DNA from: Blastocystis sp. Blastoise | Taxonomy: Eukaryota; Sar; Bigyra; Opalinata; Blastocystidae | Length of the DNA stretch: 64,000 nt | Reading direction: 5' to 3' | Assembly (NCBI GenBank): GCA_039096225.1 | Contig: JBBPEB010000034.1 | Location: 310,001 to 374,000, forward strand | Shown: one piece after another, positions 23,035 to 32,302 of the stretch | Layout: every line of letters begins with the position of its first letter | Position numbering within the stretch: the first letter of the stretch is position 1 | The notes under the pieces: generated by a model | Told to the model about the DNA's origin: nothing | What the model saw: only the letters and a program-made list of their open reading frames with translations | Databases searched by the model: none | Program-made: the position numbers and the translations under genes

Positions 23035-32302
<9,268 letters not shown>

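Follow-up and report, generated by a model that had tools for sequence, protein, structure and literature searches.

N-terminal mimics of histone H3 are already known. The N-terminus of PAF15 (PCLAF) is read by the PHD finger of UHRF1 with a Kd of 2.2 uM (available excerpt of PMC7060239), and DPPA3 uses an internal VRT motif at the same UHRF1 PHD site as PAF15 (available excerpt of PMC11187062). H3 itself has an affinity of about 2 uM for the UHRF1 PHD finger (excerpts of PMC7060239 and PMC11187062). SNAIL1 (LSD1), G9a and influenza NS1 have been named as histone mimics, short H3-like segments of these non-histone proteins engaging H3 readers or enzymes, and the histone-mimicking linker of BAZ2B is an internal, unstructured H3-like segment with possible intramolecular competition (both from excerpts of PMC5663869).

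Here we describe WA158_006640, a gene of the gut protist Blastocystis sp. Blastoise contained in a 64,000-nt window of contig JBBPEB010000034.1 (the whole stretch of DNA analysed; coordinates are positions within it). As in PAF15, an H3-like sequence would lie at the free N-terminus of a non-histone protein, with VRT in PAF15 in place of ART (excerpts of PMC7060239 and PMC11187062), and A/V-R-T-K directly follows the initiator Met, which is a feature of PAF15-like N-terminal H3 mimics. Unlike PAF15, the window protein is exact over 8 residues, belongs to a nucleotidyltransferase-like/ankyrin type, carries a second, internal H3-like stretch and has paralogues without the motif. It differs from SNAIL1, G9a and NS1 in organism, protein type and two-part layout, and from BAZ2B in that no known H3-reader domain was found in the 1344 residues scanned with Pfam, where only ankyrin families were matched. 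Its core is shared with pan-eukaryotic nucleotidyltransferase-like/ankyrin proteins (PF26128 plus Ank), from which it differs in that the H3-like strings searched are missing from the 119 other homologues listed. Among the open-licence papers listed, none dealt, judged by title, with this protein or with the chromatin of Blastocystis, and the protein was not found among the titles listed for histone mimics in protists or for ARTKQTAR mimics.

Gene, domains and family

A splice model in which GTATA-type donors were favoured gave a protein that is letter-for-letter identical to the public record (P0003, WA158_006640), in agreement with the first-pass annotation, which had described a 28-exon gene opening with MARTKQTAR followed by VVTV. 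The features discussed below are as follows.

23035..32302, + strand: whole gene (splice model; 28 exons, 1839 aa; WA158_006640, Blastocystis sp. Blastoise)
23035..23061, + strand: MARTKQTAR, the initiator Met followed by residues 1-8 of H3 without a mismatch (translation, genome pattern scan)
23062..23142, + strand: residues 10-36, remainder of the gene-specific N-terminal tail, VVTVTNPLNYSNPLNEDIHEVEQVPAM (GC comparison)
23136..24293, + strand: segment 94.9% DNA-identical to the contig C2 paralogue, the match beginning just 3' of the H3-like start
23587..24089, + strand: nucleotidyltransferase-like motifs NVFVAGGS, SDIDLFIYG and FDVDSC in exons 1-3 (sequence motifs)
25680..26105 (approximate, introns included), + strand: first ankyrin cluster, Ank_2, residues 552-641 (Pfam scan)
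28840..28887, + strand: second H3-like stretch SRQMLRVSTGGRAPRK, residues 1210-1225, exon 19 (ungapped alignment to H3 3-18)
28861-28887, + strand: STGGRAPRK, core of the second H3-like stretch (alignment to H3)

The same annotation had proposed a nucleotidyltransferase-like domain followed by ankyrin repeats, and no histone. The repeats were recovered by the Pfam scan, no histone family appeared in the 1344 residues scanned, and none of the 21 matches listed for PF00125 in the organism's own genome falls within the gene. The nucleotidyltransferase-like assignment, for a region of about residues 170-420, stands at the level of motifs, the GG and SDID positions being invariant in 8/8 aligned homologues, whereas the fold matches listed concern the ankyrin part only: residues 1-548 had no match among PDB sequences at E<=10, and a model of homologue P0047 (mean pLDDT 64, pTM 0.54) had only ankyrin-type chains among the structure matches listed. 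Pfam assigns PF26128 and Ank to P0003, and homology to the nucleotidyltransferase-like/ankyrin family extends along the protein.

The family comprises at least seven genes in the Blastoise genome, namely the window gene and at least six paralogues, whose proteins start with MNIETERRV (C2), MSIPVNTTI (C31), MSIPVTTNI (C25), MKPIREIKS (C32, with one extra Met at the front of the public record) and MEVIDNNSK (C13, two copies). The 3' ends of the C31 model (1995 aa; 1877 in the public record) and of the C13b model are doubtful. At least 328 proteins, whose sources include fungi, amoebae and algae, were retrieved at E<=0.001 among at least 7991 candidates; the paralogue P0004 is 45% identical over 98% of the query, and across residues 251-560 the metagenomic sequences P0006 and P0007 show 76% and 71% identity, respectively.

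Several further observations concern the locus and the family. Exon 12 (27 bases, ending MQHGAK; window 26475-26709) is probably too short both in our model and in the public protein, and a putative GC-AG intron at 26578-26697, picked out by eye, would restore SIKQRNSALMNVLHCVTYFNYPKYLKFLLE, which is similar to paralogues C31 and C25. Two very long open reading frames lie downstream on the same strand as the window gene, at 37478-53962 (5494 aa; opening, by eye, with a MORN-like sequence) and at 54004-63882 (3292 aa). CCCGCGG occurs in the window at 24051, 25627 (minus strand), 30084 and 32184, and CCCACGGG at 19966, 25516 and 30976. Genome-wide, TTCCCGCGG has 599 + 570 matches on the two strands against 1 + 1 in the reversed control (palindromic sites are counted twice); despite this abundance, the GC content of the window is merely 18-31%. 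The papers listed for CCGCGG together with Blastocystis were, judged by title, all gut microbiota studies. All 19 matches to related strings in the seven family genes lie in modelled exons, some at common positions, and other loci contained 3 in 92,042 bases.

Two H3-like stretches in one protein

The N-terminal stretch is encoded on the + strand at 23035-23061 by ATG GCT AGA ACT AAA CAA ACT GCT AGA and is followed in the protein by VVTVTNP. In scans of both strands of the 33.3-Mb assembly, with introns not bridged, the ATG-initiated H3-start DNA pattern had 5 matches, corresponding to the window gene and to the four canonical H3 genes of the genome, which have a common N-terminal start sequence; the ARTKQTA pattern without ATG returned the same 5 matches, and the reversed control gave 0 in either case. 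ATG-ARTK, by comparison, had 7 genome matches against 3 in the control, with three non-H3 places including the window gene, so that ARTK after ATG is not special by itself. The H3-tail score of the N-terminal 36 aa, 39, was reached somewhere in the protein by 71 of 3000 permuted tails and was matched or exceeded (39-45) by several homologue segments with no link to H3, and the N-terminal 36 aa had no match among PDB sequences at E<=1; the case for this stretch therefore rests on its exactness and position and not on its score. Two other loci were noted in passing: a further possible gene start, MARTKVNSSSNKKDTGAKEVKTYAF, with in-frame stops upstream (L074, C14:1219105 +), and a divergent, apparently intron-containing H3-like gene starting with MARTTHTTKKVGGKPSKPVRVS, possibly a centromeric H3 (L018, C20:721753 +).

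The significance of the first stretch depends on where translation begins. M1 is the first Met after a stop in the open frame and is the start used in the public annotation. Initiation at M36 (VPAMSRT), which would leave ARTKQTAR untranslated or away from a free end, is suggested by the presence of a corresponding Met in 7/7 family members; we consider it very unlikely, since codons 1-36 are coding-like, with positive coding log-odds and a GC content of 0.37, whereas the GC content of the upstream DNA is 0.14 over 108 bases and 0.22 over 300 bases. In addition, codons 1-35 of C31 and C25 differ at 12 first, 7 second and 25 third positions, a pattern of translated sequence, so that in these two paralogues translation begins before the corresponding Met. 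We infer the same for the window gene, possibly with a short upstream exon. By eye, TNPL..NPLNED within residues 10-35 resembles NP..NP..ED of C31/C25, which would suggest a possible homology, but an ungapped comparison of C26 with C31 gave 21 mismatches at first, 20 at second and 25 at third codon positions, with 8/35 residues identical.

The second, internal stretch is a near-exact piece of the H3 tail that the first-pass annotation did not mention. Residues 1210-1225 are identical to H3 3-18 at 10/16 positions without gaps, K9 being replaced by V and K14 by R; R-x-S-T-G-G and A-P-R-K are kept within a basic loop that has no free end. Genome-wide, the pattern TGG[MRN codon]APRK has 5 matches, once more limited to the window gene and the four H3 genes, against 0 in the reversed control. 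With an ungapped BLOSUM62 score of 53 against the H3 tail, the stretch ranks first among 126 proteins, the next scoring 45 (129 proteins with 222,115 aa were loaded, two copies of the window gene and one ribosomal fragment being set aside); the score exceeds those of all 200 shuffles of the window protein (maximum 40) and of all 3000 permuted H3 tails (maximum 50), and the best scores of the six paralogues are 20-26. A search of all PDB sequences with a 33-aa internal segment gave 69 matches at E<=1, and the best 60 of the 69 were all H3, H3 peptides or Cse4; the best E value, 0.048, is weak alone. A third candidate piece near residue 940 (SKMRKTGRKSRQSK; score 26) lies at the median of the shuffles and was discarded.

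Judged by sequence comparison, both stretches are located in variable parts of the protein, which are probably disordered. This location is also what would be expected if tails and loops that drift rapidly within a large family had struck H3-like strings by coincidence, an explanation that we regard as unlikely. It draws further support from the fact that H3 was picked after the match had been seen, from the non-H3 occurrences of ATG-ARTK, from the PRK that the internal stretch has in common with paralogue C2, and from the chance of encountering STGG.APRK in an assumed 4-million-residue proteome (P ~1e-4), which is not vanishing. On the other hand, an exact 8-residue N-terminal match has P ~7e-12 per protein, given the composition of the family and window proteins, and P ~7e-8 if 10,000 proteins are assumed, STGG.APRK has P ~5e-8 in the window protein under independent residues, and the two stretches occur in one protein, each pattern being found elsewhere only in H3 genes. 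Chance is thus a poor explanation of the H3 likeness.

Distribution and origin of the H3-like stretches

If the likeness reflected a long-standing function, homologues might be expected to keep ARTKQTAR while the neighbouring residues drift, as the earlier annotation had proposed to check. Neither stretch is present in any of the six paralogues found, and the 119 other homologues listed, which include paralogues C32 and C31 and some N-terminally truncated sequences (e.g. P0006, P0007, P0029, P0038 and P0049), contain no ARTKQ or MART start and no STGG.AP-type string; P0006 and P0007 also lack the internal stretch. Unrelated N-termini in homologues were what that annotation had named as refuting its reading. 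The result counts against a conserved mimic, which we set aside on these paralogues and listed homologues, but not against a young one confined to a single gene copy. A search with residues 1-60 gave 21 candidates, with only the window protein itself at E<=10, and one with residues 1-250 gave 12 proteins at E<=1e-10, the Blastocystis sequences among them being P0003 and P0004; neither search returned an orthologue with an intact N-terminus, an absence that is weak because the latter also missed the known paralogue P0005.

Comparison with the C2 paralogue places the N-terminal stretch at the border of a shared segment. Protein identity to C2 is 98% (210/215) over residues 36-250 and 94% (290/310) over residues 251-560, against 51% (170/332) over residues 561-900 and 35% (313/901) over residues 901-1839, and no collinear match to C2 was found in the 2 kb upstream of 23136. 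The C2 match looks like a recent conversion tract with its 5' edge just past the H3-like tail. At the internal position, C2 reads GVRNPRKNRK; as PRK is common to the two proteins (NPRKNRK in C2), part of the internal H3 match was probably inherited. PRK is thus probably older than STGG, and STGG looks inserted.

Such exchange within the family also bears on descent from H3 itself, i.e. on the possibility that conversion or template switching long ago copied the 5' end and the internal piece from H3, either the gene or its transcript, and that the two pieces have no selected function. Both pieces match a single protein, H3, and follow each other as they do there; the contig of the window gene also carries two H3 genes, ~134 and ~139 kb away, and the family recombines, with near-identity to C2 setting in at 23136. 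The codons point the other way. ARTKQTAR has AGA for each of its two Arg residues whereas the four H3 genes use CGT, Ser of the internal stretch is TCT as opposed to AGT, and one Gly, one Ala and one Pro are encoded by the rare codons GGC, GCC and CCG. Globally, 20/24 bases of the N-terminal stretch and 19/27 of the internal stretch are identical to the H3 genes, where 20.05 and 19.27 are expected for independently drawn synonymous codons; recent copying of H3 DNA is consequently not supported. An old copy in which changes had reached saturation would hardly be revealed by this codon test. The upstream DNA of the window gene likewise scores against H3 upstream DNA within the range of 100 shuffles. 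Gene fusion with H3 or recent copying, having left no trace in codons or upstream DNA, was rejected, and the older copying event appears improbable to us.

A candidate H3-tail mimic

The first-pass annotation had interpreted the N-terminus as an H3-tail mimic. The resemblance itself is real and beyond chance, and a second H3 stretch has been found in the same protein; both stretches are nevertheless absent from the paralogues and homologues listed. Our tentative first choice, which we hold to be a little short of probable, is that the window protein is a recently evolved, two-part H3-tail mimic represented by a single family member and probably engaging H3-tail readers.

Removal of the initiator Met is expected for a Met-Ala start by the general rule, and would expose a free A-R-T-K-Q-T-A-R end. 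This end could be taken in by a pocket for H3 A1-R2-T3-K4 and may sit in an H3 N-terminus reader, most likely of the PHD type, or in a K4/T3 writer, and RVSTGGRAPRK, in its basic, NLS-like loop, might provide a second contact. In this way the protein would be retained at chromatin readers or would compete with H3 for them and, having neither K9 nor K14, the mimic would escape methylation at K9 and acetylation at K14. A more specific version, possible if doubtful, is that of a split, write-resistant decoy, with H3 1-8 at the free end and H3 10-18 in a loop, in which the K4 side and R17-K18 are kept and K9 and K14 are replaced, and which would occupy H3 readers while itself escaping marks at K9 or K14, the likeness having arisen by convergence at the protein level in one copy of the family.

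If the mimic reading is true, a stramenopile would possess a histone mimic whose two pieces together account for most of H3 residues 1-18. Because only one copy in a family of at least seven has it, and a sister copy that is in part nearly identical does not, it would offer a clean natural comparison for the origin of mimicry, and the mimicry is directly testable with two peptides, one of which is SRQMLRVSTGGRAPRKHRK. As for possible partners, Haspin, which would write T3, has 2 genome matches, both below cut-off, and the putative reader machinery in the genome comprises 63 PHD and 6 FYRN matches.
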